This document shows, piece after piece, positions 33,819 through 54,900 of a stretch of 64,000 nt of DNA. The notes under the pieces were generated by a model, which saw only the letters and a list, made by a program, of their open reading frames with translations, ran no database searches and was not told the DNA's origin. Source of the stretch: Zygnema cylindricum (Eukaryota > Streptophyta > Zygnematophyceae > Zygnematales > Zygnemataceae). The translations under genes were made by a program, and so were the position numbers. The stretch spans positions 20,670 through 84,669 of the forward strand of contig JBBHKE010003056.1 of the NCBI GenBank assembly GCA_037447655.1, written 5' to 3'. Numbering within the stretch: position 1 is the first letter of the stretch; each line of letters begins with the position of its first letter.

Positions 33819-35603
33819 CGTTATGGGCCACCCTCTACGGTGCACATCTTTAATGGAACAGGTTTCATATACTAGATAAGTATGATGATAGGAGCTCTAT
33901 GTGAAAAAAGGTTTAGGGGGATAGCGAGTGGACGAGTGAGGCGTCTATCCAGCCTCGGTATCCCTCTAGGGTTTCCAAGAACCACGTTTACCGAAAGGGC
34001 ATATCGAGCCCTACAAGAGGAGAGTGAGGATGGGGAGAGCATTGTAAGGACAATGGGGAAAGAAAAGGAGACAACAACACTTATAGCAACCGGATTGGCT
34101 TTCATGTCACCTGTTCCGAGGAAAAATGAGAGTGATATTAATACATGGGATTACAATAACATAGGAGCAAAACACTTCATACTTTGCCATCTTACTCAAG
34201 GACTTGCATCTCCTCATTTACAGGTGGAAAGGGAACTTAATCTATGGGTGACTCTCATAGAGTTGTACCGAAGTGGTACAATTCAGCAATAGCAGTTGGC
34301 TGATCACAAAATAGATGCATATGTACACAAAGGGGGGAAAATGTTGATTTTTTGTAATGAGCTCGCAACACTTTTCATGGAGCTACAAAGTGGTGGAAAA
34401 GTAGAAACTGAAAAGGAAAAAGTTAACTGCTTGCTCATGAAGTTACCCGATGACTACGACAACATAGTCAACTGTGTGCTGGATTTGACGCACTCCAAGT
34501 GGATTTGGAATTGAGTGGTAGGAATGATTCTCGGTCAAGAGAATACGATAGAGATCTGGAGGGGAGGAAAGAGTGGACAAGTGTTGGACGCCGAGATGGA
34601 TTGGAGGAACAAGGATCCCAGAAAGCAGGTTGGAAACTATAGAGGAGGAGGACAGAAAAATCAGTTTGATTAATTGGGACTGTGGGCTCCCAAGGGGCTG
34701 TGTCATTTGTGTAAGAAACCAAGGCACTATATGGCTGAGTGTTCTAATCTAATTAAACCGCGGTTAAAGGAGGGGCAGATCGGTGGATCAAGGAGAGGAA
34801 AGAAAAAGGCCCTTGTGACTCAAGTACTTGAGGAGGAATCTGAGGACGAGGACAATGAGCTGTTATAGGATGAGGAGTTTGAGGTAAAAACCGAGGCCTA
34901 ATTTCCACGTAAGCAAAAATGTGTCTTCACTGGATTGAAATGTGAAACACGTTAGGTTGTGGACTCAGATACCTTCATGCACATGTGTAAGGACAAACAC
35001 ATGTTTACAAAAATGAGGAAGATTCCCACTATAGAGATAGAGTACGTGGATGGGAGAATAGTCATTACTACTTTTGAAGGGTCGATAGACCTGAAAGTGT
35101 AAGTGGAAGGAAAGCCATCCATTGTTACTTTCTTAGATGTGTTGTTTATTCCGAGTTAAACAAAAACCTCAACTCTACTTCTGTGTTAGATGATAAGGGT
35201 TTTGATAGAAGCATAAGGAAAATGAGTTTTTACTGCTAGTTTTGAGGAAGAAGTTTATTTTATTGGTGAAAATGGTAGCCAAGGGATGTTTAGGCTGATT
35301 TCAAACAATTAAAAGAAAAAACTTTACTATGCTGGTGTTCATGAAATAATGTTGTGGCATAAGAGGCTTGGGCATGTGAATATAGATAAGTTAAAAGAGA
35401 TGAAAAAAATGGGGTAGTGGAAGGGATTCATTTTGGTGAGAATGAGAATCTAAGTGATTGTGGTGGATGTGCTCAAGGAAAAGCACACCGATGACCTTTT
35501 CCAGAAACCGCCACCTATAAAGGAGAAAAGGTGTAAGATTTGGTACACACGAATATCTTGGGACCGGCTAAAGTGCCGTCACCTGGGGGGGGAAGATTTA
35601 TGA
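33819..35603 (+). pseudogene. Copia C gag-protease-preintegrase remnant
   Basis: Gag blocks lie at 33819-34514. The zinc knuckle CHLCKKPRHYMAEC lies near 34700, a protease-like VDSDTFMHMCKDK near 34960 (the usual DSGAS is altered to DSDTF), and the GAG-pre-integrase segment LWHKRLGHVN near 35353. Many stops and frameshifts. It ends in the middle of integrase (AKVPSPGGGRFM), where gypsy G is inserted. Confidence 0.85.
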
Positions 35604-37892
35604 TGTCATGCCGCATCTCGTCGGCTATTTTAGTTGTTTATATTTGGGTGTTAGGACGGGCAGCCGCTACACTAATTTGTATTTGGGTATTATTTGGGTC
35701 TCGCAGGACCGTACGACGTGTACCGTACGACCTACATTTTCCGTGATTTCCGGGATGGCGATTGGGTTCGTACCCGCGGTCCTACCGTACGACGTATAAT
35801 TTCCGCGATTTCCGTCGACGGCGGATTTGATTATTTCGCTTCGACCGTACGACTTACGCCGACCGGAATTCCCGCGGCCACGACTTACTGTACAATAGAT
35901 ATCTTACGCGATTTTCGCCGACGGTGGATTCGATTATTTTACATCCACCGTACGACTTACATTACCCGGAATTTCCGCGATTACAAATTGGACCGTATTT
36001 TCGGTCCTACCGTACCTACTTTCATTTCCGGAAATCCCGGCCGACGACAATTTTTAATCGTTTCGCGTAAAGTAGCATCCCCGCCGTCGACGCTGATTAT
36101 GTAATTTTCGTAACTTCGCATCTGGACGGTCGACGCAAATGACAGACAAATTCGCTGTCAGTTCTGACGAAGCTACGCTATTGGACTATTTTAAGTCGTG
36201 AACCATTTGGAGGTTCACGCATTTACATGTAGATAGGAAGGGTTTTAATTTGTAGGTTATAGATTTTGTAACGTAGGGCATAGGATTTCGGCCTCCTATT
36301 GGCCGAATCCAAACTTGACGCAAATATTTACATAGCACGCTGTACTCTGATTGGCTTGTTTTCGCTAGACGTAGTTTTGGTTACTTAGTTGATTTCGCAT
36401 CATTTCCTGCACACAATTTTCAAGTGCATGAATTATTCATTTGATTTATTTTCAGTATTGAGGATTCTCTGCAGCCATCTTTTTATTTGTAAAATTGTCC
36501 GGACAGCTTAGAGGCGATTTTTTGCCTTTGCGTGAAGCGTCTAGTTTTCTATTATATTATCCTTATCTTGTAAAGCCTTACAAATTAATCTATACGGCTT
36601 CGGCCAAGACCTACACGGTTTCCCTTCACTTTTCTCATCTTTTTTGAGTGGATTTCGACCGCGATCTCAAAACACAAACTTCTTTTCCCGATTGTGGCTG
36701 AACTTTAATTAGTGTGGAAGTTGCATTTGGGGTTATTGTTGTGTTGTTTTTATTTATTGTGATTGTGTATTTATTTCTATTTGGCTTTTGCGCATCTTTT
36801 GAGTTTGGTTATCTCAAACCTCATAAGTGTCGGGCATATTGTCATTTGCGGTTTTTATTTATCTTTCTCGGTTGTTTATGCTTTGATTTATTATATTTAA
36901 GTATGAATTCAGATTATCCTTGATAAGATAACTCCTGCAAGGAATATAAATAGACCGTGGGGCCTAGTGGTCATCCATCGGCTTAGTATTCCTGCACTTC
37001 AAAATTGTCTTATTTCCCTTTCTCGCTTGTTTGTTTTTATTTCAATTTCGGTTTTCTTTTTATTTAAAGAAAAAAAAAATATATATATATTTAAAAATAT
37101 ATATTTTTTGATATATATATAATTAGCTTTACATTTATAATTACCATTTGCTTGTTAGTTGATGTTTTATCTTATTGGCCAATTTTCGGCCAACGATATA
37201 CTACACTAACTTAAGCATTTGGTTTTTGTTTTTCCCATTTTTTGTTATATATCTCGAGCATCGTTTGCTCACATTGAGACATATTTCACTAAGGAGTGGA
37301 GTTAGTGGAGCGGATCCGTTCTTGGGAGCTCTGCAAAACTTCGGTTGTAGCAAACAACCGCAGTTCACCCTTGGCAATCACCAGATCGCTAAGAGTGTTA
37401 TGTAAGTATCACGATGCCTTGCGGGTGCAGGCGCGTGTTAAGGTAGGCGGTTGATCGTATAGAGGGATCGTGTTTGGAGTGGATTAGTGTTAATCCACTT
37501 GTATTGAGCATTGCACTCGTCCAGCTTTCCCTGCTTGCTATCTAGCCCTGAGTGGCCTTGGCTGAGTTTGCTTTGCCAGGAGTGGGATTTCTTCCATAGA
37601 TCTTGCCGTTGGAGGCATTCGTTAGCATTTTTGTGGATTGTGTCGCTTTAGATCTGCACTTGGAGTGCTTGGATAGTAAGTTATTGGCCTTTTTAGATCT
37701 GGCCCTTCGACCTTGTCCCCTTGTTTGCAGGGTAGAAGGTTTTGGTAATACGACTCCTTGATAGATCTGGCCATCGAGGCCTTGTTAGAGATTGATTGGC
37801 TGATTGGACAAAAGAGTGGTGTGGCCTGGCATTTGAAGCATATCGGATAAATCGGTTTTGTTATCTGGTCATCATTTGGTGTTATCATTTTT
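35604..37892 (+). other. Gypsy G 5' terminal region and leader
   Basis: About 2.3 kb before gag; the LTR/leader border is not clear and no primer-binding site could be assigned. From about 35708 to 36065 there are four or five diverged units beginning CCGTACGAC and containing TTTCCGCGATTTCCG-like text and GGATTCGATTATTT. An AT-rich palindromic stretch lies at about 37068-37125. No protein is recognised. Confidence 0.55.
35708..36065. repeat. CCGTACGAC-initiated tandem repeats in the 5' region of G
   Basis: Diverged units of roughly 60-100 bp start near 35708, 35789, 35849, 35948 and 36010. Shared words include CCGTACGAC, TTTCCG, CGACGG and GGATTTGATTATTTCG. Repeats at this place in an LTR can act as enhancers, which is inference. 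Confidence 0.6.
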
Positions 37893-39789
37893 ATGCCCAC
37901 CGATTGGGAGAATCTTGATTATCCTGTGGGAACCACTCGATCGTCGGCCTCGTTTAGGCCCACGGAATCCGGACCATCAGATTTATCTAGTCTTTTGGAC
38001 CACCCTTCCCTAAATATCTCGGGTCAAATTTCCCCTTGGGTTCGATCCACTCTCACCTCAATATCTTCCTTATCATCAGTCTCTTCCACATTTTTCGAAG
38101 AGGAATCTGACCGCGATTCCCTTGACGGGTCGGATTCCGATTCATTATCTTTTTGGTTTCCGCAAATTTCCAAGCTTGTTTTATCTCCAAGCATTCCATT
38201 ATTGGAAATGGCTTCCACATCCGAGGGGGGGGGGGCGCCTTCATTTCTGTTTTTCAGGAATGAAGGATACCATGACGTTATCGCATTTTCGAATGCTATT
38301 CGATACCGAAATGCGTGATCTTGCATTTCGGTACCAAGATCGGTTTGACCTACGGGTCGCTTTCTCTCTCTTAGGTCGTTACCTTGGAGGTTCAGCCCTT
38401 ACTCTTTATTCTCGCAAGTATGATTCCGTACTTGCGATGACAGAGTTCTCTCCGTCTTTTGCTGGGAGTCCTGCTATTATAGGACAACTAGAAATTCCAT
38501 ACCAACCGGCTATCCCGGAAGTCCTCGATCTCAACGGCGATGTTATAACACAAGCAGTTGCGGAAATACCGCAACAGTTTGCTATAGCCGCACGTGCTGG
38601 AATTCCAGCACGACCAGCGATGACGATCCCTATATTGGATCCGCTCTCAGTCATGTTCGAAATGTTGCAAGCGGAATACCGTATGCAAAACCCTGACCAA
38701 GTTCGGGAGTTAATGAACTTCGAACGGAAGTCAGGAGAGACCGCCCCTGCCATGCGTGCTCGCATGGAAGCTCTTCGTGAAGCATTGCCTGACTTGATGT
38801 CGGATGCTGAAGCTGTCCAAAAATTTGTAGGATAGTTTTCGAGTCAGTCTAAGAAATTCATCCAGAGTCACCTGACTCAAACGTATGGCTTGAAGTTCAC
38901 TTTCGACCAAGCTGCCCAGCATGCCGTGGAATACGAAATGCAAAATTGTTGGTGGGAAGCCCATGACCGACCTAAAGCGGTCCCGAAAGAACCGATTGTT
39001 CCACCATGGAACAATCCCCGTCCTAACAACCGGCCTCCTAAAGTCCCGGCCATGGGAACCCCACCTGTTGCTCCCGGAAACCGATTATGTTTCCGATGTG
39101 GGAAGACCGGGCATGATGCCCGAATGTGTCTAGACAAAACTGCTACCTGTACACATTGCAAGCAAACCGGACATTATGTCTATCGTTGTCATATAAAAAA
39201 CCCAGAATATTCATATCAAAACCAAATTAAGAGTGGTGGCATTCCAGCTCGATCCGCAAGGCCGGTTCAACCGATTAAAGAACCAGAAAAAAACACCACT
39301 CCACCTAAGGTATCTCGAAGAGAGAGAGAGCGTTTAGAAATGCAAGAGCAAATGGCGGCTATGATGAAAGAACAATTCGCAGCTTTCATGACGCAAATGA
39401 AGCCACAATTTACAGGCATGGCTCGCACTGTTGTACACATGCCCACGTTGGCAGGTCGAATCTTACGAGATTCCACCATCCAACAACGAGAGGCTACGTT
39501 TGACAAAGGTTCGACTGATCACAGTCGTGATGGTAAAACCCCTAACACACGTATTCCTTTGTCATTCACTAAAGAACCTTCTCCTCCCTTTTCTGAAACG
39601 GCTTCAGCCATCGCGGCTGAAGCTCTCAACATAGTGGATCGAACTATACATGAAGCACACCGCGTGAAAAAACGCTTGTGCATTCTTTCCGCTATGATTT
39701 CCGATTCACCAAAAATCTCTCCTATCTCCTTACTCTCCGATAGCGGGTTACAAGCACTTCACCTGCACAAAAATCTTGCTGCTATTTAG
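37893..39789 (+). pseudogene. Gypsy G gag with two CCHC zinc knuckles
   Basis: One frame runs from ATG 37893 to 38318. The continuation to 39789 lies in another frame, so there is a frameshift near 38290. The main body contains a capsid-like segment (ELMNFERKSGETAPAMRARM near 38700). At 39090-39190 two knuckles follow, CFRCGKTGHDARMC and CTHCKQTGHYVYRC, which would bind RNA. TAG stops interrupt at 38833-38835 and 39787-39789. A basic and Met-rich segment follows the knuckles. Confidence 0.85.
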
Positions 39790-40154
39790 CCTATTTCCAT
39801 AGAGGAGCGAAAGTCTCTCGATCCTCACATCAGTTTTTTGGATAATGCGAAGGGTGCATTGTTGATAAATCGTATAGCCCCTTCCTTGCCTCTCATGGAT
39901 ACGGGTGCAAATCCGATGATATTGGGCTCTAGCTTTGCAATGAAGCTTAGTCTAACTCCGGACAAGCTTCAGTCCACTTCTACTTGCTTGTTAACATCAG
40001 CGGGTACAACTGAACCGGTCCTAGGAATCACTAAGGAACCGCTGGTTTTCACGTTCCAGAACGAAACGGCCACAGACTTTGCTGAAATCTCGGTTCACGC
40101 TCTAGTCACTAAATGTAGTGACTATGAATGCCTAGTGGGACGGGACGTTATATT
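39790..40154 (+). pseudogene. Gypsy G aspartic protease, split by copia B
   Basis: The active-site motif LMDTGANPMILG begins near 39895, and the second half ends in YECLVGRDVIF, as in retropepsin-like proteases. The frame is interrupted at 40154 by element B and resumes at 45671 in phase. The protease would have cut the polyprotein. Confidence 0.85.
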
Positions 40155-40892
40155 TGTTGTTTTTAGAAAGCTTTAGTCCTCTTTATGCCTCAGCTGTGAG
40201 AGAGAGCTGTTCAGGACTTAAGCTATTTTTGGTTGAGTTCGGTTCAGTACTTACCGAAATTAGTGTGACAGTGAAGTTGGGAGTTCACGGTTCATTCACA
40301 CTTGGGACACGTGTCGTCACTTGGGAGAATGCGTGAGTATGTCCTCCGTGGACGTACGGAAATTCGGCAGGACTACTGGACTTCGTGAAGTCAATTCTAC
40401 GGTGCCAAATCCTCTAATCGGACCGCTGACAGCCGCCGCCAACAAATAGTGACGAGGCGTGACTAGATCATTATCACTTTACGTTGTCTGAACTTCGGTG
40501 TAAATATGTGTGATAGAATGTTAGAAGTACGGCTGGAATGCCTCCGTACAGCTTAGTGTAGTTTCGGTGTATAAAAGTAGGACTTAGTGAATTTGATTTT
40601 TAGGAACAAATGATATGAAAATTGTACACTCAGTTTTATGTAATTTCATTTCTACATATCTCACAGATTTGTGAGCGGAATTAATTGCAATTTTGTGTGT
40701 GTGTTCCTTTGTATGTTATCTACGTTGTGGCAAATTTTCAGGACGTTTGGAGCGTATTTCTGAAAGTTATAGTCTGTCAAAGTTGCTGTTCAGCCATCGG
40801 TATTTGTGGAAGCTTCCTCTCTTGATTTGTTCTACGATGACTACTGCTGCATCTTCTTCATCTTCAGTACCAACACTTGTCTCAGAACAACA
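40155..40892 (+). repeat. Copia B 5' LTR (738 bp) containing the gag start
   Basis: Begins TGTTGTTTTTAG and ends GAACAACA. A TATA-like GTATAAAAGTAG lies at about 40570-40581. The gag ATG at 40837 lies inside the LTR, and its frame runs through the LTR end into internal sequence. No TGG-type primer-binding site follows; the next bases are GGTCACGGGCC. Confidence 0.93.
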
Positions 40893-43800
40893 GGTCACGG
40901 GCCCGCCTTCACGAATTCCGGTCTTTGATGGACGTGAATATCTGTATTGGGCAGATTTGGTTAAGTCTTACTTCAAGCAAGTGAAACTTATTGATGTGTT
41001 AAATGGATCATTGGCAGAATCTGATGCCAGTTTTGATCAGAAAAATGACCAGGCTTTGCATTTAGTAAAGCTTATGATATCAAAAGAATTGCATATGACA
41101 TATATTAATGTTGCAAAGGCATCAGATTTGTGGGATGCATTGAAATCTTCTTATGTTAAAGCTAGTGACCAGCATGAGATTATAACTGCTGGTCAAATCT
41201 ATGAGTATAAGTACACAGGTGGTAGCATGGTGGAATACACTAATCGGTTTCGAATGTTACTGTCAGAAAATGCATGTTCTGGGGGGACTTTCTCCCCTTA
41301 TCATCAGGCCATGATTCTCCTAAAGGGGCTTCCTAATGAATATAAAGGAGCCTCAGATGAAATGAAAAAATTGTCTAAACCTCTTTGGAATTTGCAAACA
41401 GCTATAGAGTTTATCTTGGCAGAAGAGGCTACTCAGACAGTTTTAGGATTTGGAAAACCAGCTGTAGCATTTACGGCTCAGTTTCAGAGGGAAAATAGAT
41501 ATCAAGGGAATCAGTTTAATCCTCAGTTTGAGAAATGTGTTTATTGCTATACTGATGGTCACTCGTTCAGAGCTTTTCCTTTGTATATAAAAGCTCTTGA
41601 AACAGGTACCTTTCGGAAAGGATGGAGACACCGCGGACCTCCCATTTCCCAAAAACCTCCGAATAAAATTGTTGCATTTTCAGCGGAGGATACGGAATTG
41701 GAGAAGAAAAAGACCGAGGAAACGACACCTGATGTGATCAGTTTTCCAAAAACTGATGACAAAGAGTTCTTTGCTCTCGCCAAACTCGACATGATGGAAG
41801 GAGAAAAGGACCTCGGATGGATAATGGATTCCGGCAGCTCTTCACACATGTGTTGGAACAAGTCTTGGTTTAAGGAAATGTCTTCTATTCCTTTACGTCA
41901 GATCTTTTATGCTTGTGGCTATGCTGTTGAATCAAATGCCAAAGGAAACATAGATCTCGATTGTGTGATAGATGGAAAGGTTGTTAAGAGAACTTTGTAT
42001 GATGTCTTGTATGTTCCAAAGTTCAAGAAAAATCTGTTTTCTACTTCTGTAGCTGAAAGCAAAGGCTTTGAGGTTCTCCAGAAAAATGGCAAGAAAATAG
42101 TGAGCAAGAATGGAAGAGTAGCTCTAGTAGGAACTAGAGGCCCAAACTTTTTGTACCGCATGGACCTGGCTAATAAAATTGATTTTGCGTACTCCAGTGT
42201 CCTATGTGATAATGTTTTGTGGCATAAAAGGCTTGGTCATGTGCACCATGAGAGACTTACTAAGATGATAAACCATAATATGATAGAGGGAGTCAAGCTT
42301 GGTCAAAAAGAGTCCCATGTTTGTGATGGTTGTGCTCTCGGAAAGCTTCACAAGCTTCCTCTACCACAAGTTTCTGATCATCGAGCCACAAATCTCCTTG
42401 GTATTATTCACTCTGATGTCTTCGGCCCTTCCAAAGTTCCCTCTCTTGGTGGCAGCCGCTTCTTTGTCACCTTTACAGACGATTACTCCCAATATAGTCG
42501 CCTATACTTCATGAAGGAGAAGGGAGAAGTCTTCACTCACTTTAAGCACTACAAAATCTGGGCGGAGAAACTTCACGGCAAATCTATTCTTGCTTTGCGA
42601 ACGGATAATGGTGGAGAGTATGTATCTCATGCATTTGCTGATTTTTTGAAAGAGAATGGCATCTCTCGTGAATTTACTGCTCCGTACACACCGGAACAAA
42701 ATGGTGTTGCCGAGAGACTTAATCGGACTTTGACTGAATGTGCTCGATCTATGATGGCCGATAAAGGTGTGGATCCAAAGTTTTGGGGGGAAGCTTTTCA
42801 TTGTGCTTCTTATATCAGAAATAGAGTGGAAACCCGGGCTGTTAGGGGTAAGACACCTTATGAAGTTTGGACAGGCAAAAAGCCAAATGTTAGTCATTTT
42901 AGAGTTTTTGGTAGCAAATGTTTTATCTTGGATAATCTTCCTAATTGGAAGCTTAGTCCAAAATCTGTACCTGGCGTCTTCTTAGGCTATGATGATGAAT
43001 CTGCAGGTTATAGAGTGTATAATCCTCAGAGAGGATGTCTTCAAACAGCCAGGAATATTCAGATTAAAGAAGAAAGTCAATCTGTTGACGTTTTTAGCAT
43101 GGATGCAGCTGAAAGGAAAGAGAAAATACAAGAGTATATCATTTTTGAGCAGGTACCTTTTACTCCATCCTCTTCTACTTCTTCTACCTCTCTCCCAAAT
43201 GCCTCTGGGCCGTCTAATACTCTTTCTGGAGCTGCTCCTTCTGTCGATGCTCCTCCGAATACACGCCTTGTGCGGCAATCTAAGGAACCAACCGTTCCCG
43301 CGTCAGATTTTCCGGGGGGAAGAAGGCAAAGTAGCCGCCTTCGAGGCGACCGAGTTGAGAGTGCTTTTTCTACAAGCACAGGGGAGCCGCTTACTATTCA
43401 TGAAGCTTTTTCCGTTCCTGAAAAGGATTATTGGATCTCGGCTGCAAATGAAGAGATAAAGTCAATTATGGAAGCCCAAACTTGGGAACTTGTGGAGCTC
43501 CCACCGAACAGGAAAGCTATCGGTTGTAAGTGGGTCTTCAAATTAAAATTGAATCCTGATAATACAATTGAGAGATATAAAGCAAGACTGGTTGCTAAGG
43601 GATTTAGCCAAAAGGAGGGAATTGACTATGAACAGACCTTCTCTCCTGTGGTTCGCTTTCCTACTGTTAGAGTTTTGCTATCTCTTGCTGCAATAGAAGA
43701 TATGGAATTGCATCAGATGGATGTTAAGACAGCTTTCTTGCATGGTGATTTGGAGGAAGTAATTTATATGAAGCAGCCAGAGATGTATGCAGAAAAAGGG

Positions 43801-44736
43801 AAAGAAAATCTGGTCTGTAAACTGTTGAAGTCCCTTTATGGTCTGAAACAGGCTCCGAGGCAATGGAACCTGAAATTAGATGAGTTTTTAACCAATCTAG
43901 GCTTTACCAGGATCAGTTCAGATCACTCAGTCTATGTAATGCAAGGTGATGATGGAGTGATTTATGTGGCAGTTTATGTAGATGATTTGCTACTAATTAG
44001 CAAATCCATCAATGAGATTAATAAAATAAAATCAGCTTTGAATTCCCGGTTTGAAATGAAAGACTTGGGTGAGGCTAAGTATATTCTAGGAATTCAAGTA
44101 GAAAGAGACAGGAAACAGAAAATTATTTATTTAACTCAAAAGGAAGCAATTAAGAACATGTTAGAAAAGTTTGGCATGTCGGACGCAAAGGGGAGTGCCA
44201 CTCCTATGGAATTCAGGCAGAAATTGGAAGGCACGGAAACGGATGGTGGTGTTTTGGTTGATGGTTTCTTAGATTCAGGGGAGGCAGATTCTATGTCCTC
44301 CATTCCTTACAGGCAGATTGTCGGAAGCCTCATTTATTTCATGAATTGTACTCGTCCCGACATCGCAGCAGCGGTTGGAGCCTTAAGCCGAAGCCTTCAG
44401 AATCCAAGGAAATCAGACTATGAGGCAGCAAAGAGAGTTCTTCGTTATCTTGCAGGAACTCAAAATCTTAGACTCTCTCTCGGTGGAGAGGAAGTCAAAA
44501 TTCATACATGGAGCGATGCGAGCTACGGAGATATGCCGAGCCGACGCTCCACCACCGGATTCATTTTGAAGATCGGAAGTGGAACTTGCTGCTGGAGCAG
44601 CAAACTTCAGAAGGTAACGGCTCAGTCTACCATGGAGGCTGAGTACATGGCTGCCAGCTCGGCAGTTAAAGAGTTACTTTGGGTAAAAAGTCTCTTCTCC
44701 AAGAGCTTCTCTTTATGCAATCTGGACCACAGATAG
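40837..44736 (+). CDS. Copia B gag-pol polyprotein (1299 aa, 3' end frameshifted)
   Basis: A single frame encodes gag, protease (WIMDSGSSSHM near 41818), a pre-integrase HHCC segment (LWHKRLGHVH near 42217 and CDGCALGK), integrase with FTDDYSQYSR, LRTDNGGEY and TPEQNGVAERLNRTL, reverse transcriptase with VYVDDLLLIS near 43975, and RNase H (TWSDASYGD near 44507, STMEAEYMAAS). An upstream in-frame ATG at 40693 is also open, but 40837 matches the start of the related family. The gag knuckle reads CVYCYTDGHSFRAF, with the last Cys replaced by Phe. A net +2 indel near 44690 ends the frame early. Confidence 0.95.
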   Translation: MTTAASSSSSVPTLVSEQQVTGPPSRIPVFDGREYLYWADLVKSYFKQVKLIDVLNGSLAESDASFDQKNDQALHLVKLMISKELHMTYINVAKASDLWDALKSSYVKASDQHEIITAGQIYEYKYTGGSMVEYTNRFRMLLSENACSGGTFSPYHQAMILLKGLPNEYKGASDEMKKLSKPLWNLQTAIEFILAEEATQTVLGFGKPAVAFTAQFQRENRYQGNQFNPQFEKCVYCYTDGHSFRAFPLYIKALETGTFRKGWRHRGPPISQKPPNKIVAFSAEDTELEKKKTEETTPDVISFPKTDDKEFFALAKLDMMEGEKDLGWIMDSGSSSHMCWNKSWFKEMSSIPLRQIFYACGYAVESNAKGNIDLDCVIDGKVVKRTLYDVLYVPKFKKNLFSTSVAESKGFEVLQKNGKKIVSKNGRVALVGTRGPNFLYRMDLANKIDFAYSSVLCDNVLWHKRLGHVHHERLTKMINHNMIEGVKLGQKESHVCDGCALGKLHKLPLPQVSDHRATNLLGIIHSDVFGPSKVPSLGGSRFFVTFTDDYSQYSRLYFMKEKGEVFTHFKHYKIWAEKLHGKSILALRTDNGGEYVSHAFADFLKENGISREFTAPYTPEQNGVAERLNRTLTECARSMMADKGVDPKFWGEAFHCASYIRNRVETRAVRGKTPYEVWTGKKPNVSHFRVFGSKCFILDNLPNWKLSPKSVPGVFLGYDDESAGYRVYNPQRGCLQTARNIQIKEESQSVDVFSMDAAERKEKIQEYIIFEQVPFTPSSSTSSTSLPNASGPSNTLSGAAPSVDAPPNTRLVRQSKEPTVPASDFPGGRRQSSRLRGDRVESAFSTSTGEPLTIHEAFSVPEKDYWISAANEEIKSIMEAQTWELVELPPNRKAIGCKWVFKLKLNPDNTIERYKARLVAKGFSQKEGIDYEQTFSPVVRFPTVRVLLSLAAIEDMELHQMDVKTAFLHGDLEEVIYMKQPEMYAEKGKENLVCKLLKSLYGLKQAPRQWNLKLDEFLTNLGFTRISSDHSVYVMQGDDGVIYVAVYVDDLLLISKSINEINKIKSALNSRFEMKDLGEAKYILGIQVERDRKQKIIYLTQKEAIKNMLEKFGMSDAKGSATPMEFRQKLEGTETDGGVLVDGFLDSGEADSMSSIPYRQIVGSLIYFMNCTRPDIAAAVGALSRSLQNPRKSDYEAAKRVLRYLAGTQNLRLSLGGEEVKIHTWSDASYGDMPSRRSTTGFILKIGSGTCCWSSKLQKVTAQSTMEAEYMAASSAVKELLWVKSLFSKSFSLCNLDHR

Positions 44737-44904
44737 TGTGGTGTGATAATCAGGCAGCAATCGCTATTGCATCTAATCCCAGTCATCACTTTAAGAGTAA
44801 GCACATTGATATCAAGCTACACTTTGTAAGAGAAAAGGTGATGGGAAAAGTCCCAAATTCCCAAATTGAAGTTCTGTAGAGAGGCTTGTGGACTGAGTGA
44901 CTAG
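44679..44904 (+). pseudogene. Copia B out-of-frame end of RNase H
   Basis: Continues the RNase H text in a different frame (SLLQELLFMQ, WCDNQAAIAIASNPSHHFK, then VREKVMGK). A further deletion of roughly 60 bp relative to element A then jumps to the terminal PKLKFCREACGLSD before TAG 44902-44904. Both lesions affect only the last ~80 residues. Confidence 0.85.
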
Positions 44905-44920
44905 CAGAGTCTAAAGCTTT

Positions 44921-44927
44921 AGGGGAG
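44921..44927 (+). promoter_or_regulatory. Polypurine tract of copia B
   Basis: AGGGGAG directly abuts the 3' LTR start TGTTG and is the expected primer for plus-strand DNA synthesis. The same AGGGGAG tract precedes the 3' LTRs of A, D and F. Confidence 0.85.
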
Positions 44928-45665
44928 TGTTGTTTTTAGAAAGCTTTAGTCCTCTTTATGCCTCAGCTGTGAGAGAGAGCTGTTCAGGACTTAAGCTATT
45001 TTTGGTTGAGTTCGGTTCAGTACTTACCGAAATTAGTGTGACAGTGAAGTTGGGAGTTCACGGTTCATTCACACATGGGACACGTGTCGTCACTTGGGAG
45101 AATGCGTGAGTATGTCCTCCGTGGACGTACGGAAATTCGGCAGGACTACTGGACTTCGTGAAGTCAATTCTACTGTGCCAAATCCTCTAATCGGACCGCT
45201 GACAGCCGCCGCCAACAAATAGTGACGAGGCGTGACTAGATCATTATCACTTTACGTTGTCTGAACTTCGGTGTAAATATGTGTGATAGAATGTTAGAAG
45301 TACGGCTGGAATGCCTCCGTACAGCTTAGTGTAGTTTCGGTGTATAAAAGTAGGACTTAGTGAATTTGATTTTTAGGAACAAATGATATGAAAATTGTAC
45401 ACTCAGTTTTATGTAATTTCATTTCTACATATCTCACAGATTTGTGAGCGGAATTAATTGCAATTTTGTGTGTGTGTTCCTTTGTATGTTATCTACGTTG
45501 TGGCAAATTTTCAGGACGTTTGGAGCGTATTTCTGAAAGTTATAGTCTGTCAAAGTTGCTGTTCAGCCATCGGTATTTGTGGAAGCTTCCTCTCTTGATT
45601 TGTTCTACGATGACTACTGCTGCATCTTCTTCATCTTCAGTACCAACACTTGTCTCAGAACAACA
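44928..45665 (+). repeat. Copia B 3' LTR (738 bp)
   Basis: Almost identical copy of 40155-40892. It ends GAACAACA followed by the ATATT duplication. The gag start codon and first codons are therefore present here too, and the frame runs out into gypsy sequence for a few codons before TAG. Confidence 0.95.
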
Positions 45666-45670
45666 ATATT

Positions 45671-47100
45671 TCGTGTAGGGGGTGGTGTTGACATGCATGA
45701 TCAGACATTTTCTTATAGGCCCACTACCTTCCCGGAATGCAAAATATGCATTCCGCTAATTTCCGCTAGGAAGCCCATGCCTATTATGGCGAATTCGGCC
45801 ACCTCCATACCTGCATTTTCAAGGAATTCGGTGGGGGCTGAAATATTTCATTCATTCTCAGCAGAAGTAATTTTGCCTGATAGTTCTTACTTACCAGAAA
45901 TTTTAAGTGATCCAGGTTTTCTTATAGATACGAGGGAATTTAACCGAATCTATAACCAAACCTTGTCAATTCCACTTTCTCCGATCCCTTCCCCAATCTC
46001 AATCCCTACAGACTCTTCTGGGTTTCTTCCCATTGATTGGAATCCGGTCCAATTGAAACCTCATCCAAATGGATTAGTGATTTTGGACCTTTTCGCTGGA
46101 ATATGCACTTCTCTCCTTGCATGTTTGCGGAACGGATTATTAATCCGATTTTATTATTCGGTGGAGATTGATCCGTTAGCACGGAAAGCACAATTACATC
46201 ATTGTAATCTGTTGCATTCCCAATACCCGCATTTGTTCCCAAAATCTGCATACGAGCATATGCATACTGCCCTCCCACAAGACATCCGGATTGTGGGCAA
46301 CCATCACTCACTGGAGATTGGTCCAATCGATCTAGTTTTTGGCGGATGGGTGTGCCAGGGAATGTCCCGGGCCGGGAAAGGTCTCGGATTAGCCGATCCC
46401 CGCACCAAATTATTTTTTGAGTTGGTTCGCATCTTACATTTTCTACAAACTTTAGATCATACTATGGGGTATATCTTGGAAAATGTCGCGGCCTATAATG
46501 ATCCAAGACCTACGGTTTTGGCTGATTATCAACGAATCGAACAATTAATTGGTCCGCCTCTTATTATTGACGCGGCTCGCCATGGTTCACTAGCACACCG
46601 GGTTCGCTCCAAATGGACGAACTTGATCGATATTGGAAGACTTCGGGAGGCCAACTTGTTAGTTTGTCCTCCTCCTACAGACATTCAGGCTGCCCTTCTT
46701 CCTTTTCATAAGGTGGAGGCTTGCATTCAAAAGGATTGTCCCCCTAATTTCAGTGTCAATGTCCCGGGCCAACCTCTCAAGGTGCTTCCTACCTTAGTTT
46801 CTTACCCACATTCACATGCATTCTCTAATGACGGCCCTGGCATGCTCCGAAACATTCATACCGGTGAGCTTGAAGAGCCTACCTCTACGGAACGAGAACA
46901 CATAATGCATTTCATTCCGGCACTACTGCCGCTCCTGGTCTTATTGAACGTCAAAGATGCACTTTATTAGGTCGTGTCATGGACCCTCAGTCTTTGTCTT
47001 TTGTTTTAGGTCTTGGGTTTGCAGATGGTCGCCACTCTCAGGTACATCCGTCTGAACCAGCTGGGGGGGGGAATGCATCACTAAGAAAATCTTTCCGTAC
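45671..47100 (+). pseudogene. DNMT3-like C5-cytosine DNA methyltransferase domain inside gypsy G pol
   Basis: After copia B and its duplicate target are removed, the protease frame continues into this region in phase. Methyltransferase motifs appear in order: motif I ILDLFAGICTS (about 46080), motif II YYSVEIDP, motif IV GGWVCQGMS (about 46340), motif VI LENV (about 46477), motif VIII AHRVRSKWTNL (about 46593), then a target-recognition segment, GELEEPTSTEREHIM and LIERQRCTLLGR (46930-46975). The last parts are arranged like DNMT3/DRM enzymes. The catalytic Cys is present, but the usual Pro before it is Val. A frameshift near 46908 separates HIM from the final motif. The active enzyme would methylate cytosine in DNA using S-adenosylmethionine. 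Confidence 0.92.
47061..47072 (+). other. Internal G-run resembling the 3' polypurine tract
   Basis: AGCTGGGGGGGGGAAT between the methyltransferase and reverse transcriptase resembles the tract AGCTGGGGGGGGGGATAA at 50443-50458. It is in frame as AGGGNA. It could be a second plus-strand priming site or a trace of how the module was acquired; both are inference. Confidence 0.35.
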
Positions 47101-48900
47101 CACTCCCCAAGGGACCATATTTCAATTTTTCCTCTTTCCTTCTCCAATTCCACCAATTCCGGAAATCTCTATCTACGTTTTCCTCAATCCTAGCCATATG
47201 TCCTGGTCTATTCCCGCATAAACGGCTGTCCAGTCTACAAGCCTCATGCATATTCCACCCACTCCTCATTGGAGTGCTGCTTTTCCAACACGCAGTTGGA
47301 ATCATTCGGTTAATTGCTTTAAACAGACACCTGTAGCTTACGAGTTAGGACAAACGCCTATCGCAGATGAGCAGTTGGCCTTTGCACAAGCCATGGAAGC
47401 TATGACAACCGAAAATCCCGATGCTCCTAAATGGAAATTTGGCACTAATCTAACAAAGGCCAAACAAGAGTTACTGAATGACAAAGTTTTACGAAATATC
47501 GATGCCTTTGCCTTTTCTATGAATGATTTAGGTTGTCACACCGCTTATAAAATGTCGATAGATCTCGCAGATGATCGCCCTATATTGAAACCGAAACATC
47601 GTTTGTCAAAAACTGAATGGGAAATGGTAGACAAGCGATGTGCTAAACTAGAGGAAGCTGGCCTAATCTATCGGTCAGACTCCACATTTGCAGCCCCCAC
47701 TGTCATGCCTCGGAAAAAAGATTCCGAGGGAAATTTTACTGAACGTCGAATGTGTGGTGACTATCGTGAACTAAATGCTAGAACAGTTCAAGATCGTCAT
47801 CCCATGCCTCTTGCCGAAGAAATATTTGATCATGTAGGCGGAGCAAATTATTTTAGTATCCTTGACCTCCGTCAAGGATTCAATCAAATCGAGATAGAGG
47901 AAAAAGACCGGCATAAAACTGCCTTTTAGGGTAGCGACGGCCGATGGGAATGGGCCGTAATGCCATTCGGACTGAAAAATGCTCCGGCAGTATTTCAAAA
48001 AGTCATGGACTTCGTTCTTGGAGGCTGTAAGTTTGCTAGATGTTACATTGATGACCTCATCATTGCCTCGGCTACTATCGAAGAGCACGCTGCTCACATC
48101 GAATGGGTATTGACTGAATTAAAAAAGGTCAGATTAAAATGTCATCCAGCGAAATGCACCTTTGGAGCCGAGGGAGTGCCTTACCTCGGCCATTTTATCT
48201 CGGCTGAGGGGATCACTCCTCTCGAAGCAAAGGTAGAGGCAATCAGTAAATTGCCTGCTCCCACAGACCTCACCAGTCTGCGAGCCTTTCTCGGACTTGC
48301 TAATTATTATCGCAGGTTTGTATCTAATTTTTGCACCATCGCATCTCCGTTAAACAACCTTCTCAAGAAGGAAAAGGCGTTTATATGGGGTCCCGATCAG
48401 ATTTCCGAATTTCAAAAATTAAAAACCGCCTTATCGAGTGCTCCAATTCTCCGTCCTCCCAATCACAAACTTTCTTTTTGTCTCCAAACAGATTTTTGAA
48501 AACCCGGAATCGCCGCCATCTTCACACAAAGAGAGTTGAGCGGAGAGGAATACGTAGTTGCTTACGCGAGTATAAGCAATAACCGGGCTGAATCAAATTA
48601 TAGTAGCTACGAAGGAGAGTGTCTAGCCGCGGTTTGGGGAGTCGTTCACTTCCGCCATTATTTGTACGGAAAACCTTTCACACTCTTAACTGACCATCAG
48701 CCCTTACATTGGCTGATGACGAACGATAAGCTTTCCGTGAAGTTAGCCCGATGGGCTTTAATCTTACAAGAATATGACGTTGAAATAATTCACCGACCAA
48801 GTCTGCTTAGTCTAAACGCAAACGAAATTTCCCGAAATCCTTTGTCCCGAACAACAGATAACGGAGTTCGACAAGATTTCGATGATGACGATGTTCGCGT
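47101..48900 (+). pseudogene. Gypsy G reverse transcriptase and RNase H
   Basis: The reverse transcriptase core includes RMCGDYRELNARTVQDRHPM (about 47749), ILDLRQGFNQIEI, MPFGLKNAPAVFQ (about 47961) and the catalytic RCYIDDLIIAS (about 48038). RNase H follows with LQTDF, ESNYSSYEGECLAAVWGV and TDHQPLHWL. The frame is shared with the methyltransferase C-terminus and stays open except for stops TAA 47219-47221, TAG 47927-47929 and TGA 48497-48499. YIDD and the fold order are Ty3/gypsy-like. Confidence 0.92.
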
Positions 48901-49840
48901 CATGTCAATGGGTTCTTATCTTACTTACTACCTAGCGTCTATTCCGAACCCCTGTCCCGCCACAGATCCTTGGCGTGATGGGCCTCTCATTCTTTTCCTA
49001 TCCTCCCAGACCTTCAGGTCCGGCACCACCTCTGATGAAGAAGATAGAGTGAAAAAGAGGGCAAAAGGTTCCCTTTGGCTCGGGGGATCTTTAGTTCGGT
49101 TGTTGGCAGACGGAAGCCATAGGCATGTTCCACGGCCTACCGAGTGTCTTTCTCTCATTGAGCAGATTCACACCGAGCTTGGTCACTACGGTACCAAGCG
49201 AACGTTAAGTCTAGTTCAGGCACGGTATTGGTGGTCAGGAATGCAAGCTGATGTCGCTGCTATTCTACACAAGTGTGCCACCTTTGACCGTCTCCGAACT
49301 TCTTTCTCTAACCGGCAGACCACGCTTCAACCTCTACCTATTAGGGGTTTGTTCTATCGATGGTCGGTCGATTTGGCCGGACCTTTTCCTATCTCACGTA
49401 GGGGTAAACAATATATTATGATTATGATTGAAAATTTCAGTAAGTGGGTAGAAGTCGTAGCCCTGCCTCACAAGACTGCTAAGTTAACCACTGCAGCTTT
49501 TAAGGAACATGTTCTTATGAGATACGGTGCCCCAGCCGAGGTCCTTACGGATCAAGGTACAAAATTCCGGGGAGAATTTCAAAAGATGCTTGATGAGGCT
49601 CTCATCGATCATCGTCGTACTAGTCGGGATCACCCCCAGGCCGATGGCCTGGCTGAACGAGCAGTCCAGACATTTAAGCGTGCCTTGCGTAAGCATTGCT
49701 TAGAAAAACACATTTCGGTTTGGGACGAGTCCCTTGGTTACATTACCATGGGATATCGCATGTCGGTTTAGGCTAGTCTGGCTAATTTCAACCCGTATTA
49801 TATTTTATTTGGGTGACAGCCGTTGCTCGGTCGCAGTATT
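48901..49840 (+). pseudogene. Gypsy G integrase core
   Basis: The zinc-binding segment HTELGHYGTKRTL…KCATFD (about 49169-49290) has its last Cys replaced by Phe. The DDE core is visible as WSVDLAGPF (about 49363), VLTDQGTKF (about 49541) and HPQADGLAERAVQTFKRAL (about 49630). In-frame stops are TAG 49769-49771 and TGA 49814-49816. It would insert the cDNA into the host genome. Confidence 0.9.
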
Positions 49841-50439
49841 CAGAAAGGCCGCAAGCTTCCCACTTCTGCTGATGTCTGACACTATTTATTTGGAAGAACT
49901 CACTCGCCGTGCTTTGCTTTTTGCCCGTGAAATGCCCATGGCTTTTGATAACCTGCAGATTGCCCAGCTTCGGGAGACAATCGGTTTGCCACTACTCGCA
50001 GTGGCAGTTACAGGCGCAACAGAAGCCCTATCGGGTGGGAGATTATGTTTATCTTCGCAGACAATCTTTTGACACTTTGGACACGGATGTTTCTGCACAC
50101 ATCTTACGGATTATCGAGGTGGATCCGAACGGGATGTTGGGATTACAAGGAGCGGACACGCCGACTTTTCAAGAGCACTCCAAGAATTGTGCTCCATGTT
50201 ACTTACCAGAGTTGTCGCAGGATATGGATCCTATGCGGATGCCGATTACGGAGGCGACGACATGTACCTTTTGTCATCGATCTGACGGGGAAACTACCAT
50301 GCTACTTTGTGATCATTGCAATCAGGGGTTTCACATGGAGTGTTTGGTGCCACCTTTATTGGCAGTTCCCGACGGTCACTGGTTTTGCCAAACATGTCGC
50401 GAGCTACCGGTCGTGTTGGCAACCTCCTCTGTCGCCTAA
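49841..50439 (+). pseudogene. Gypsy G integrase C-terminus with PHD finger
   Basis: After frameshifts, the integrase C-terminal segment (KPYRVGDYVYLRRQSFD near 50010-50065) runs into a Cys4-His-Cys3 PHD finger at 50263-50397. The spacing is CX2C, X11, CX2C, X4, HX2C, X14, CX2C, with the Trp two residues before the seventh Cys (HWFCQTC). The domain sits where chromoviruses carry a chromodomain. PHD fingers usually bind histone H3 tails, so it may steer integration. The stop is TAA at 50437-50439. Confidence 0.88.
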
Positions 50440-50445
50440 AGAGCT

Positions 50446-50456
50446 GGGGGGGGGGA
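50446..50456 (+). promoter_or_regulatory. Polypurine tract of gypsy G
   Basis: A run of ten G followed by A lies seven bases after the stop codon of pol, the expected position of the plus-strand primer. The 3' LTR should begin just after it, but the following 190 bp do not match the start of the element at 35604. Confidence 0.65.
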
Positions 50457-50648
50457 TAAACCGACCTAACCATAACCAGCTAAGTCGTTGACCTTTCTTT
50501 TTCTTCCACCTTGCCTATTGTTGTATTTACCCATTTTTTTGCTTTTATGATTTATTTCATTTCCGATATCTCGCTATCATTTGAGTTTAAGTTGAGCACA
50601 GCTGATGATATTGCATGCATCTTTATGTTATTTGACACATGCACGACA

Positions 50649-50901
50649 ATGATGACCATCACCGATGATTCTTCTCGGTACTCTGGGGTATATTTTTTGA
50701 AAAACAAATCAAAAGCTTTGAAATATTTTAAGCAATACAAGGCATGGAGTGAGAAACTCCATGAAACCTCAATCAAGAGAGTAAAGAGTGACAATGGTGG
50801 TGAGTATACCTCCAACTAGTTTGAGGATTTTATGAGGGAAGATAGAGTACACCGAAAGACAGTTCCAGAAAAATTTGAAAAAGAATGATGTGGCCGAAAG
50901 G
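50649..50901 (+). pseudogene. Copia C integrase middle fragment
   Basis: Continues C's integrase after gypsy G: MTITDDSSRYSGVYFLKNKS, then KRVKSDNGGEYTSN and a degraded segment up to NDVAER at 50901, where D is inserted. It contains the first two catalytic Asp positions. Confidence 0.85.
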
Positions 50902-51934
50902 TGTAGAAAATAAAGGCTATTTTAGTAGTTTCTAGGTTTTGTAAAATGTAGAAAAGAAGAAGAGGCAGTCTGCCTCTAACTCCCCTCTCCAGCTCCCACA
51001 CTTGTCGTAGTCACTGAAAGTTGGAGAGGGAGATAGAGCCATGGCCGCCTATGCTATCCAGACAAGAAAAGACATTAGATTGGTAGAATTACCAAAATAG
51101 ATATTGACGGACCGCGGATTTCAACCTGACGGCTCTGACAGTCAGAGCCGCCGGTAGCCAGTAGCTTTAGCTAATTAGACTAGGATTAAGGATACAATAT
51201 AGAGTTTGATAATTACATAAATATGTACACATAGGCTATTTTCATTTCACGAGATATTTGGACATAGATACACTTTGTAATGTACAGCGTACGGAATATC
51301 CAAAAACGATACCGCGCAATTTGATTCGAAGGCAAAACAAATATCGCGCAAGTATTTATGACGACTACGATTGAAATCCGGTTTAATCGGACGGCCGCAA
51401 AGCATGCCGAGATTGCGGAATAGTTTTTCGGCATTTTGAGGTCAACGTCACGTCGAATGACACGTGGCACAACCATATTGGAATACGGCATCTCCGAGGA
51501 TCACAAGAACGAATCCAAAAATGACATCTATCGACTTTTTAGCCATGTTGTATAATGGCCGTACAGAAAGTACACCGGCACTCGTACCTTTTTGTACGAT
51601 ACAATATTATGATTGGTGCAGTACTGCAGTAGATATAGTTTTATAGAGAGATAAGACTAAGAAAAAATTCATATATTGGACCCTCTCTCTCGGAGAGCTT
51701 CTGTACAAAAGTTCAACTTTGACCCTTCATAACTTACTACTCAGAGGAGCAAATTCATATATTTTTTTTGCTATGGACTAAGGAGAATCTTGCCTTTACA
51801 AAGGTGAAAGTGGCCTGAGTTTTTTTCTGCCAAGGTGGCAGCTATTCTAACTGAAACACAAAGGGGCCAGGGTTATCCTAGAGGCTTCGTGTGAGCTGCG
51901 TATTATAAGGACCTATGGAGGTCTCAGAGTTGCA
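50902..51934 (+). repeat. Copia D 5' LTR
   Basis: Starts TGTAGAAAATAAAGG and ends CTCAGAGTTGCA. It contains GACACGTGGCACA and a minus-strand tRNA-like block near 51105-51170. Confidence 0.88.
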
Positions 51935-54900
51935 TGTTATGGGCCCACCCACTAATATGCCCATATTCAATGGAACAGGAATCATATACTGGGAAAGTAT
52001 GATGACATGAGCTCTATGTGAGAAACGGTTTTGGGAATAGTGAGTGGACAGGTGAGGCCTCCATCAAGTCTTGGGATACCTGTAGGGTTTATAGGAAGCA
52101 GATTCACTAGAGATGCAGATCAATCTTTAACGGAGGAGACAAAAGAAGTGGAGGAGGTGGTCAAAGAAAAGGAGAAGGAGATGGTCACACCAATAGTAAA
52201 CGGTTCGGCATTCATGTTACCTATTCCGAGGAACGAGGAGAATGATATCGATACCTAAGACTACAACAATATGGCGGCTAAGCACTTCATCCTTCGCCAT
52301 CTTAATCAATGGCTTGCATCTCCCCATTTGCAGGTAGAGAGGGCATCCAATCTTTGGGTGGCTCTTATAGAGATGTACCGAAGTGGTATGATTTAGCAAC
52401 AATAGTAGGCTGATCAAAAAAATTAAGGAGTAGGTATACAAAGGGGGGAAGATGTTGGATTTTTGCAATGAGCTTGCTATACTTTTCATGGAACTACAGA
52501 GTGCTGGTAAAGTATTTAGTGAAAAGGAAAAGGTTAACTGTTTAATGATGAAGTTACTCGATGAGTTCGAAAACATAGTCAACCGTATGCTGGACTTGGC
52601 TAACTCAAGGTGGATTTGGAATTCCGTGGTAGGGATGATTCTCGTTCGGGAGAATACGATTGAGATCCAAAGGGGAGGAAAGAGTGGGCAAGGTTTGGCA
52701 GCTGGGACCGATTGGAGGAAAAATGATTCCATGAAACAGGTTGGAAATTATCGAGGGGAGGGGCAGAAAAATCAGATCGAGGAGTTCGAACCAAGGACTC
52801 CCAAGGGTTTTTGCCATTTTTGTAAGAAACCATGGCACTATATGGCTGAATGCACTAAGATAACTGAACTGCGGTTAAAGGAGGGGCGGACCCATGGACC
52901 CATGAGAGGAAAAAAAATGGCCCTTGTGACACAGGTACATGATGCGAAATCCGAGGACGAGGACCATGAACTCCTATTCGATGAGGAGTTGGAAGCAAAA
53001 AACGAGGTTGAAATTCCACGTAAGCAGAAATCTGCTTTCGGTGGATTCAAAGGTGAAGCAGGCTGGATTGTAGACTCAGATGCATCCATGCACATGTGTA
53101 AAGATAAACACCTGTTCACTAAGATAAGAAAGATACCCACTGTAGAGATAGAGTACAAGGATGGGAGGATAGTCACTACTACTATTGTAGGATCAGTTGA
53201 TCTAAAAGTGTTAGTCGAAGCAATGAAATCTATTATTATATTCTCTAATGTATTGTTTATTTCAAAGGTGAACAAAAACCTCATCTCTACGTCTGTATTA
53301 GATGATAAGGGTTTTGATCATAGCACTAGGAAATGCTAGTTTTGAGGAGGAAGTTTATTTTACTGCTGAAAAAGGTAGCCAAGGGATATTTAGGCTGATT
53401 TTAAGCAATGAAAAGAATAAACTTTATTATGTTGGTGTTCATGATATAATGTTGTGGCATAAGAGGCTTTGGCATGTGAATCTATATACGTTAAGAGAGA
53501 TGAAAAAGATAGGAGTAGTGGAAGGAATTCAGTTCGGTGAGAGTGAGAATTTAAGTGATTGTAGTTGATGTGCTCAAGGTAAAGCACACAGGTTACCTTT
53601 CCCAAAAACTTCAACCTATAAGGGAGAAAAGATTCTAGATTTAGTACACACAGATATTTGGGGGCCAGCCAGAGTGGCATCACCTTGAAGAAAGAGATTT
53701 ATGATGACTATCACCGATGATTGGTCTCGGTATTCCAAGGTGTATTTTTTGAAAAATAACTCAGAGGCTCAACAATGTTTTAAACAATATAAACCATGGA
53801 GTGAAAAACTCCATGAAACCTCAATCAAGAGAGTAAGGAGTGAGAATGGTGGAGAGTGTACCTCTAACCAGTTTGAGGATTTTTTGAGGGAAGATGGAGT
53901 GCAACACCAATAGACAGATCCGAAAATCCTGAGCAGAATGGTGTAGCTGAAAGATTAAATAGAACACTAAGTGATAGTGCCAAGAGTATGTTGTTAGATA
54001 TGAAGATAGGAAAAAAGTTTTGGGCCGAAGCAATGAATTGTGTAAATTCTCTCAAGAATACAGTTCTTACTTCAGAAGTAAAAGGCCAAACGCCCTATGA
54101 GAGATAGATAGGCAGAAACCAAATATTTCACACTTAAAGGTTTTCGATAGTCAAGTGTTCAATTTAGACAAATATCAATCAAACTAGAAGTTTGACCCAA
54201 AAGGAAAACCAGGATATTTACTAGGATATGATGAAGATGTAAAAGGATATAGAGTCTATAATCTCAAAAAAGAGGATATTATCCTAGTGAAGCAACTAGT
54301 GGTTATGGATGAACGAAAATCTATAGATTCCTTTAAACATACAAAGACAGTCAGAATCACATTTGAGTCATAAAATTGTGATGACTTGAGCTTCCTAACT
54401 ATCCATGATTTCAAGAAAATGATGATCTTGCAAGCACAGATCAGATCGAGAAGGACACAAATGTGAAACCTCTAGTATTAACTCCAACCGAAGCGGAAGA
54501 CGTGGTGGAAATCGACCCTGAATAAAAGGATAGGGGAGACGTAGAAACTGTTCGAAAGAATTCAAGAGAGCCATGTATTCCGACAACCGAGTTTGAGGGA
54601 GGAAGAAGAAGGAGCAAAAGACTGCAAGAGAGGCAAGTTAACAATAAGGTAACCAAACTGTCTCACCCAGATGAACCTCAAACTTATAATGAGGCAATGA
54701 CTTGTTCAGAGAGAAACCGGTGGAAGACAGCCATTAATGAGGAGAAGGCCTCAATTATGACGGCCGATAAATGGGAATTGATGGATTTTCCTCCAAATAG
54801 AAAGCTAATTGGGTGTTAGTGGGTATTTAAGCTGAAACTCAACCCGGATAACACCATTGAGCGGAACAAGGCTCGGTTAGTGGCGAAGGGATTTACTTTA

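Follow-up and report, generated by a model that had tools for sequence, protein, structure and literature searches.

A gypsy retrotransposon with a DNA methyltransferase (DNMT) is already in print for one charophyte: in Klebsormidium nitens a Dnmt3 lies in the Pol frame of an element with DIRS-type repeats, KnitGypsy-Dnmt3 (de Mendoza et al. 2018, PMC5890265). SymbioDIRS-Dnmt3, whose host is a dinoflagellate, combines a DNMT3 in Pol with split repeats in the layout A-coding-B-A-B; its enzyme methylates CG in yeast, and a tyrosine recombinase takes the place of the DDE integrase (PMC5890265). The present analysis concerns a window of 64,000 nt, the whole stretch of DNA analysed, from Zygnema cylindricum (contig JBBHKE010003056.1, positions 20,670–84,669, forward strand). 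Positions 35604–50648 of this window hold a decayed Ty3/gypsy element, a member of an old and abundant clade of green algae in which a DNMT lies between protease and reverse transcriptase (RT), and in which the integrase is followed by a PHD finger.

Compared by its description, KnitGypsy-Dnmt3 resembles this element in joining a gypsy Pol frame to a Dnmt3-type DNMT in a charophyte host, and in its DIRS-like repeats; the main text of the report makes no mention of a PHD finger, and its pertinent passages and sections describe neither a target duplicate nor a palindrome or a variable joint (PMC5890265). Nor do the pertinent passages describe a PHD finger for SymbioDIRS-Dnmt3 (PMC5890265). Chromoviruses, the Ty3/gypsy elements with a chromodomain, likewise carry a chromatin reader at the C-terminal end of the integrase, whereas the window family has a PHD finger instead, together with a DNMT and split repeats. 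CrREM1 of Chlamydomonas, attributed to Perez-Alegre and colleagues in 2005, is reportedly a green-algal gypsy element with a PHD finger and a chromodomain, carried in a separate, reversed ORF3. The pertinent passages of another report give Chlamydomonas REM1 a truncated, reversed integrase part with a chromodomain (PMC2774666). What is new here comprises the PHD finger, a green-algal clade with a probable single origin of the DNMT, target duplicates, an invariant palindrome, a hypervariable joint and a reading that invokes a circle. Within the accessible texts of the open-licence PMC literature, neither a published PHD-bearing gypsy element nor an inserted junction between long terminal repeats (LTRs) of this kind was found, and the pertinent part of a 2025 survey holds no further such element (PMC12344493).

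DNMT and PHD finger as family traits

According to the original prediction, gag, protease, a DNMT3-like methyltransferase, RT, RNase H, integrase and PHD finger had once formed a single polyprotein, interrupted in this locus by a nested copia of 5,516 bp including its duplicate target. The length is borne out: a Ty1/copia element of 5,511 bp (40155–45665, forward strand), no part of the gypsy element, is flanked by the duplicate ATATT at 40150–40154 and 45666–45670, and with one 5-bp duplicate makes up 5,516 bp. Its removal brings the protease and methyltransferase frames into register by arithmetic alone (45546 − 39790 − 5516 = 240, divisible by 3). The sister copy L009, which is uninterrupted, has a single open frame, 2,395 codons from stop to stop, that holds zinc knuckle, protease, DNMT, RT, RNase H, integrase and PHD finger, in agreement with the polyprotein.

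The genome (352.8 Mb in 2,689 contigs) was searched for other copies. The Pfam model PF00145 gave at least 123 matches, all above the cut-off as listed (782 candidates), and the window DNMT at least 97 scored matches (2,186 candidates); at least 150 were scored for the integrase piece (9,155 candidates) and at least 150 for the PHD piece (709 candidates). Twenty of the 123 listed PF00145 loci were fetched, a non-random sample picked for long open frames. In 16 of these 20 the DNMT has a PHD match of like orientation downstream of it; in L026 the PHD match is reversed relative to the DNMT, and no PHD match was found within the fetched stretch of L019, L020 and L021, the second of which is cut by a nested insert. 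Among the 97 listed DNMT matches, 43 have a listed PHD match no more than 20 kb downstream, at a distance of 4.2–5.0 kb in 29 of the 43. A second family (L012, L013, L022 and L028) carries a DNMT that shares about 40% identity with the L009 enzyme and a divergent C-terminal PHD finger which scores 17.5 bits, below the Pfam cut-off of 24. The DNMT and the PHD finger are traits of the element family, as had been proposed. The pattern expected of an accidental association, in which the two domains meet at one locus and are missing from other copies, is not the one presented by the sister copies. A recent chance insertion of the DNMT is ruled out by the sister copies, which carry a DNMT too.

A protein search seeded with L009 yielded at least 71 proteins from 7,998 candidates scored; as this element was the seed, the frequency of DNMT-bearing elements cannot be read from it. 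Among all the proteins collected, the L009 integrase piece has a match in 71; the DNMT is matched in 31 of these as well, and the PHD finger in 23 of the 31 (L009 and L013 counted in). The pair might have been peculiar to the window element, a suggestion which finds no support: at least 22 other proteins match DNMT, integrase and PHD finger, Haematococcus proteins among them. Named carriers are Haematococcus lacustris (P0013, P0014, P0035) and, by its tag, Chromochloris (P0033). Eight proteins have a DNMT match and no PHD match, one being family 2 of the Z. cylindricum genome, and two (P0015 and P0032) have a PHD match and no DNMT match. In a midpoint-rooted RT–RNase H tree of 56 of 72 proteins (16 were dropped, their match being too short), all 25 rows with a match to the L009 DNMT, a chlorophyte protein included, fall inside one clade of 27 with support 100/99, and P0015 and P0032 are its sole other members. 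The DNMT label requires three changes on this tree, made up of a single gain and two losses. Capture of the DNMT by this gypsy clade was probably a single event, and the fact that DNMT and PHD finger characterise a deep clade in green algae speaks for an ancient single capture and prolonged use. A chromodomain-bearing gypsy-like polyprotein, P0068, has a PF00145 (DNA_methylase) domain unmatched by L009; it stands outside the DNMT clade on a long branch, and its DNMT is possibly a separate capture. The Chromochloris relative P0033 also contains a G-patch domain above the Pfam cut-off. The relevant part of a published comparison credits Zygnema cf. cylindricum SAG 698-1a with a PHD family at least 9-fold the size of that in its relatives (PMC9915684); if that strain is the host, this expansion may be the PHD finger of the present retroelement.

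Split repeats, target duplicates and joints

A repeat search in the window revealed no LTR pair at the ends of the element, and the split repeats were therefore analysed; the resulting split-repeat, circle-like structure of the family is absent from the original prediction. Both limits of the element are exact. It begins with TGTCATGCC and ends with GCACGACA, and its integrase-type flanks read ATGA|TGTCATGCC on the left and GCACGACA|ATGA on the right, the matching duplicates (no strand) lying at 35600–35603 and 50649–50652. The uninterrupted empty site is visible in a paralogous copia at about 53,700 of the same window. Unit A, which starts at the left limit, occupies 35604–36988 on the forward strand and has an end common to sister copies (CGGCTTAGTA). 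Unit B, running to the right limit, occupies 50456–50648 on the same strand, immediately preceded by a G-run resembling a polypurine tract (50446–50455, forward). Each unit is present once here, and the window copy, like L017, has the layout A-coding-B only.

The full layout A1-coding-B1-A2-B2 was found in seven copies (L009, L014, L016, L025, L011, L015, L024), while in L010 and in L019, a third family, B-A-B was seen and A1 was not. Unit A measures 931 bp in L009, where the pair is 100% identical, and about 1.39–1.52 kb in the window subfamily; unit B measures about 190–243 bp. Target duplicates of 4 bp are exact in six of nine copies (window ATGA, L009 TTGG, L014 AAGG, L016 CCCT, L015 CCCC, L024 GTGG), and three of four letters match in L025 and L011. 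Of 20 further copies sampled behind the PHD finger, 17 run B-2 nt-A2 and three do not. Two single-unit copies, L017 (L017:9561) and L044, end in GACAGC before foreign DNA with the GC spacer kept, the neighbour of L044 being copia-like. For the other single-unit candidates C10 and C750 the 5' ends were not found at the expected place, leaving target duplicates unreadable, and C250 lies at a contig end.

With Ty3/gypsy elements the family shares the order protease–RT–RNase H–integrase, a gypsy-type RT, a DDE integrase and the short integrase-made target duplicate; a direct LTR pair at both insert ends is missing, the layout being A-coding-B-A-B in seven copies and A-coding-B in the window. With DIRS-type elements it shares the A-coding-B-A-B repeats. 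It differs from them in having target duplicates and a DDE integrase, and when the L009 frame was scanned with Pfam, no tyrosine recombinase was found.

The two joints behave in opposite ways. The B|A joint occurs 418 times at no more than 2 mismatches, against 0 for a reversed control, and A starts number 513 against 3 in the control. The spacer at this joint is 2 nt long, mostly GC, in 27 of 27 local joints, and the joint sequence GACAGCTGTC is a perfect palindrome. The A2|B2 joint was searched with exact flanks and a free gap, which covers exact-flank copies only; it shows 14 different fillers of 0–10 nt over 33 copies of the window subfamily and 19 fillers of 3–14 nt over 29 copies of the L009 subfamily, and these fillers blend primer-side letters with letters of the G-run. 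In the same kind of search the A1|coding boundary has one length, with substitutions only, in 52 of 52 copies and in a further 2 of 2.

Proposed integration through a circle and its alternatives

The window copy is dead, since its coding part is spread over at least seven separate stop-to-stop frames. We regard it as fairly probable that its clade uses B+A as the LTR of its complementary DNA (cDNA) and integrates through a circle, by way of the palindrome inside that LTR. RNA would run from A1 to A2, and ordinary reverse transcription would yield a cDNA of the form (B+A)-coding-(B+A), with the LTR B+A at both ends. This form is proposed because plus-strand synthesis would be expected to start at the G-run next to B and minus-strand synthesis at the constant A|coding boundary, A ending at the point where a primer site is expected. 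The ends of the cDNA would be joined imprecisely into a circle, giving the variable A|B joint; the integrase, ignoring the LTR ends, would cut the palindrome GACA-GC-TGTC inside the LTR and insert A-coding-B-A-B with a 4-bp duplicate. The two remaining steps are the least certain. The A-coding-B form of the window could be a single-unit product of the same cut or a later B1–B2 recombinant; single-unit products might stem from a circle with one LTR or from linear cDNA with both palindromes cut, and the RNA of such a copy would lack the 3' repeat, the second A being absent. The double-stranded cDNA circle may be the substrate of the DNMT, and the PHD finger might tether the integrase to nucleosomes with unmodified lysine 4 of histone H3, as the chromodomain does in chromoviruses. 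In the functional reading of the original prediction, the enzyme might methylate new copies of the element and the PHD finger might choose the chromatin.

A wider version, held tentatively and with the scales close to even, extends this route to the whole clade. The integrase palindrome would have moved from the LTR ends to the middle of the LTR, imprecise end joining would be harmless, and each two-unit copy would carry a fossil 2-LTR junction; DNMTs would recur in precisely those retroelements that pass through such a circle, namely DIRS-type elements and this gypsy clade, the reason being that double-stranded circles, when free, have to be marked or protected. If true, the circle reading offers a reason for the methyltransferases of both groups. 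For retroviruses, the circle-junction model of integration was abandoned in the late 1980s. Published reports describe retroviral integrases cleaving palindromic circle junctions in vitro (PMC1180852, PMC1905944), and linear DNA is given as the accepted substrate of retroviral integration (PMC11054761). The Panganiban–Temin model and 2-LTR circle cleavage resemble the proposed route in that an integrase cuts a palindrome in circular DNA (PMC11054761, PMC1180852, PMC1905944). As far as those texts go, the retroviral palindrome is the LTR–LTR joint and linear DNA is the substrate, whereas in the present family inserted copies contain the LTR–LTR joint, and the palindrome has its place within the LTR. 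A hypervariable LTR–LTR joint beside an invariant internal palindrome makes the circle-junction model testable in a natural element.

Templated copying of the DIRS/PAT kind would transcribe and copy the whole A-coding-B-A-B, with B1A2 as a splint and no new LTR–LTR joint. The layout is the same as in DIRS, and the K. nitens relative is described with DIRS-type repeats in the account cited above (PMC5890265). Such copying predicts an A2|B2 joint as constant as A1|coding, however, and this joint is hypervariable; the target duplicates and the presence of a DDE integrase in place of a tyrosine recombinase in the L009 frame also speak against it, and we consider it distinctly unlikely. An ordinary LTR element, with A as the LTR and the extra B and missing 3' repeat due to later rearrangement or tandem insertion, would suit a genome in which nested and broken copies are common. 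It is very improbable given that the same B|A joint recurs 418 times, that the target duplicate sits at the outer ends of A…B2 in six of nine copies and that L009, with its identical 931-bp units, is already A-coding-B-A-B. For the window copy alone, chromosomal recombination between B1 and B2 could have removed A2 and one B after insertion of A-coding-B-A-B; this is possible, with the balance tipped somewhat against it. As direct repeats some 190 bp long, B1 and B2 would on recombination yield exactly the observed structure and target duplicate. Nothing specific speaks against it; a one-LTR circle or a double palindrome cut gives the same product, and single-unit 3' ends are no rarity, with 3 among 20 sampled copies besides L017.

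The proposal that DNMT and PHD finger are passengers or structural parts of Gag-Pol, with an enzyme made inactive by the change of PCQ to ECQ in motif IV, is unlikely. Motif IV reads WVCQ in the window copy and WECQ in its sister copies: the Cys of the catalytic PCN/PCQ motif is kept, and the Pro is replaced by Val in the window copy and is lost in family 1 and many relatives. Family 2 keeps PCQ, the aligned relatives share the catalytic Cys and the ENV/ENI and HRxR positions, and the DNMT domain has been retained over a deep clade. Several observations weigh against integration through a circle and a working enzyme. A circle is proposed from the structure of inserted copies, and other kinds of end joining, such as linear concatemers, could make the A2|B2 joint. 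Some filler differences (GAT versus AAT) reflect inherited variation in the first letters of B, inspection by eye recognised no tRNA primer site (TGG) after A, L017 ends in GACAGC and has no target duplicate, and no split repeats were found in the 4 kb and 3 kb flanks fetched for family 2 (L012, L013). As to the enzyme, Glu replaces the Pro of the catalytic motif in family 1, dN/dS of the DNMT in unsaturated pairs has a median of 0.39 (7 pairs), which is not very low, and the K. nitens DNMT showed no activity in yeast, a result called inconclusive by its authors in the account available (PMC5890265).

Domains, methylation footprint and surroundings of the window copy

In single frames of the window copy the Pfam order is zinc knuckle, aspartyl protease, DNA_methylase, RVT_1, RNase H, integrase zinc domain, integrase core and PHD finger, all on the forward strand. 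Gag spans two frames (38014–39789) with a zinc knuckle at 39085–39129 that scores 20.7 bits, barely below the cut-off of 20.8. The aspartyl protease (39892–40062) is weak, at 19.5 bits against a cut-off of 24.3, and occupies the same position in L009. The DNMT (45690–46970, Pfam core 46083–46493) scores above the cut-off at 2.1e-9 and is closest to DNMT3 among C5 methyltransferases in sequence and fold; in L009, Pfam found the catalytic domain only over the whole frame, with no ADD or PWWP domain beside this DNMT. RT lies in two frames (47735–48193), one RVT_1 piece above and one below the cut-off, followed by RNase H (48500–48781), the integrase H2C2 zinc domain (49142–49285) and the DDE core, rve (49355–49636). 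C-terminal to the integrase, the PHD finger (50263–50397) has a C4HC3 zinc motif above the Pfam cut-off of 24 both in the window copy (1.1e-11, 45.0 bits) and in L009 (38.1 bits), and Pfam scans of the window frames and L009 found no chromodomain at this end.

C-to-T changes in the window copy were counted at sites where three relatives agree, and amount to 32 of 830 at CG, 30 of 670 at CHG and 36 of 2,348 at CHH (Fisher p 2e-4 for CG and 3e-5 for CHG, each against CHH). This footprint, as strong at CHG as at CG, points to past CG and CHG methylation by a plant-type host and is not specific to the enzyme that the element encodes. CpG decay, tried as a sign of self-methylation, was rejected: family 1 is not CpG-depleted, with observed-to-expected ratios of about 0.8–0.98 over 13 loci and 0.77–0.98 for parts of the window copy, whereas the nested and outer copia are depleted (0.45–0.62). 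Heavy CG methylation of the active lineage therefore finds no support. Unit A of the window is CpG-rich, its ratio of 1.61 comparing with 0.80 over the whole window, and it contains imperfect tandem CpG-rich repeats of the CCGTACGAC type at 35722–36039.

The gypsy element is itself nested in an older, broken copia (33543–35599 and from 50653 onward). After it, at 51684–54300, lies a second, related broken copia, 77–82% identical in pieces. Tandem repeat arrays outside the gypsy element occupy 11245–11670, 12677–12790, 17638–17858 and 58896–59017 of the window.

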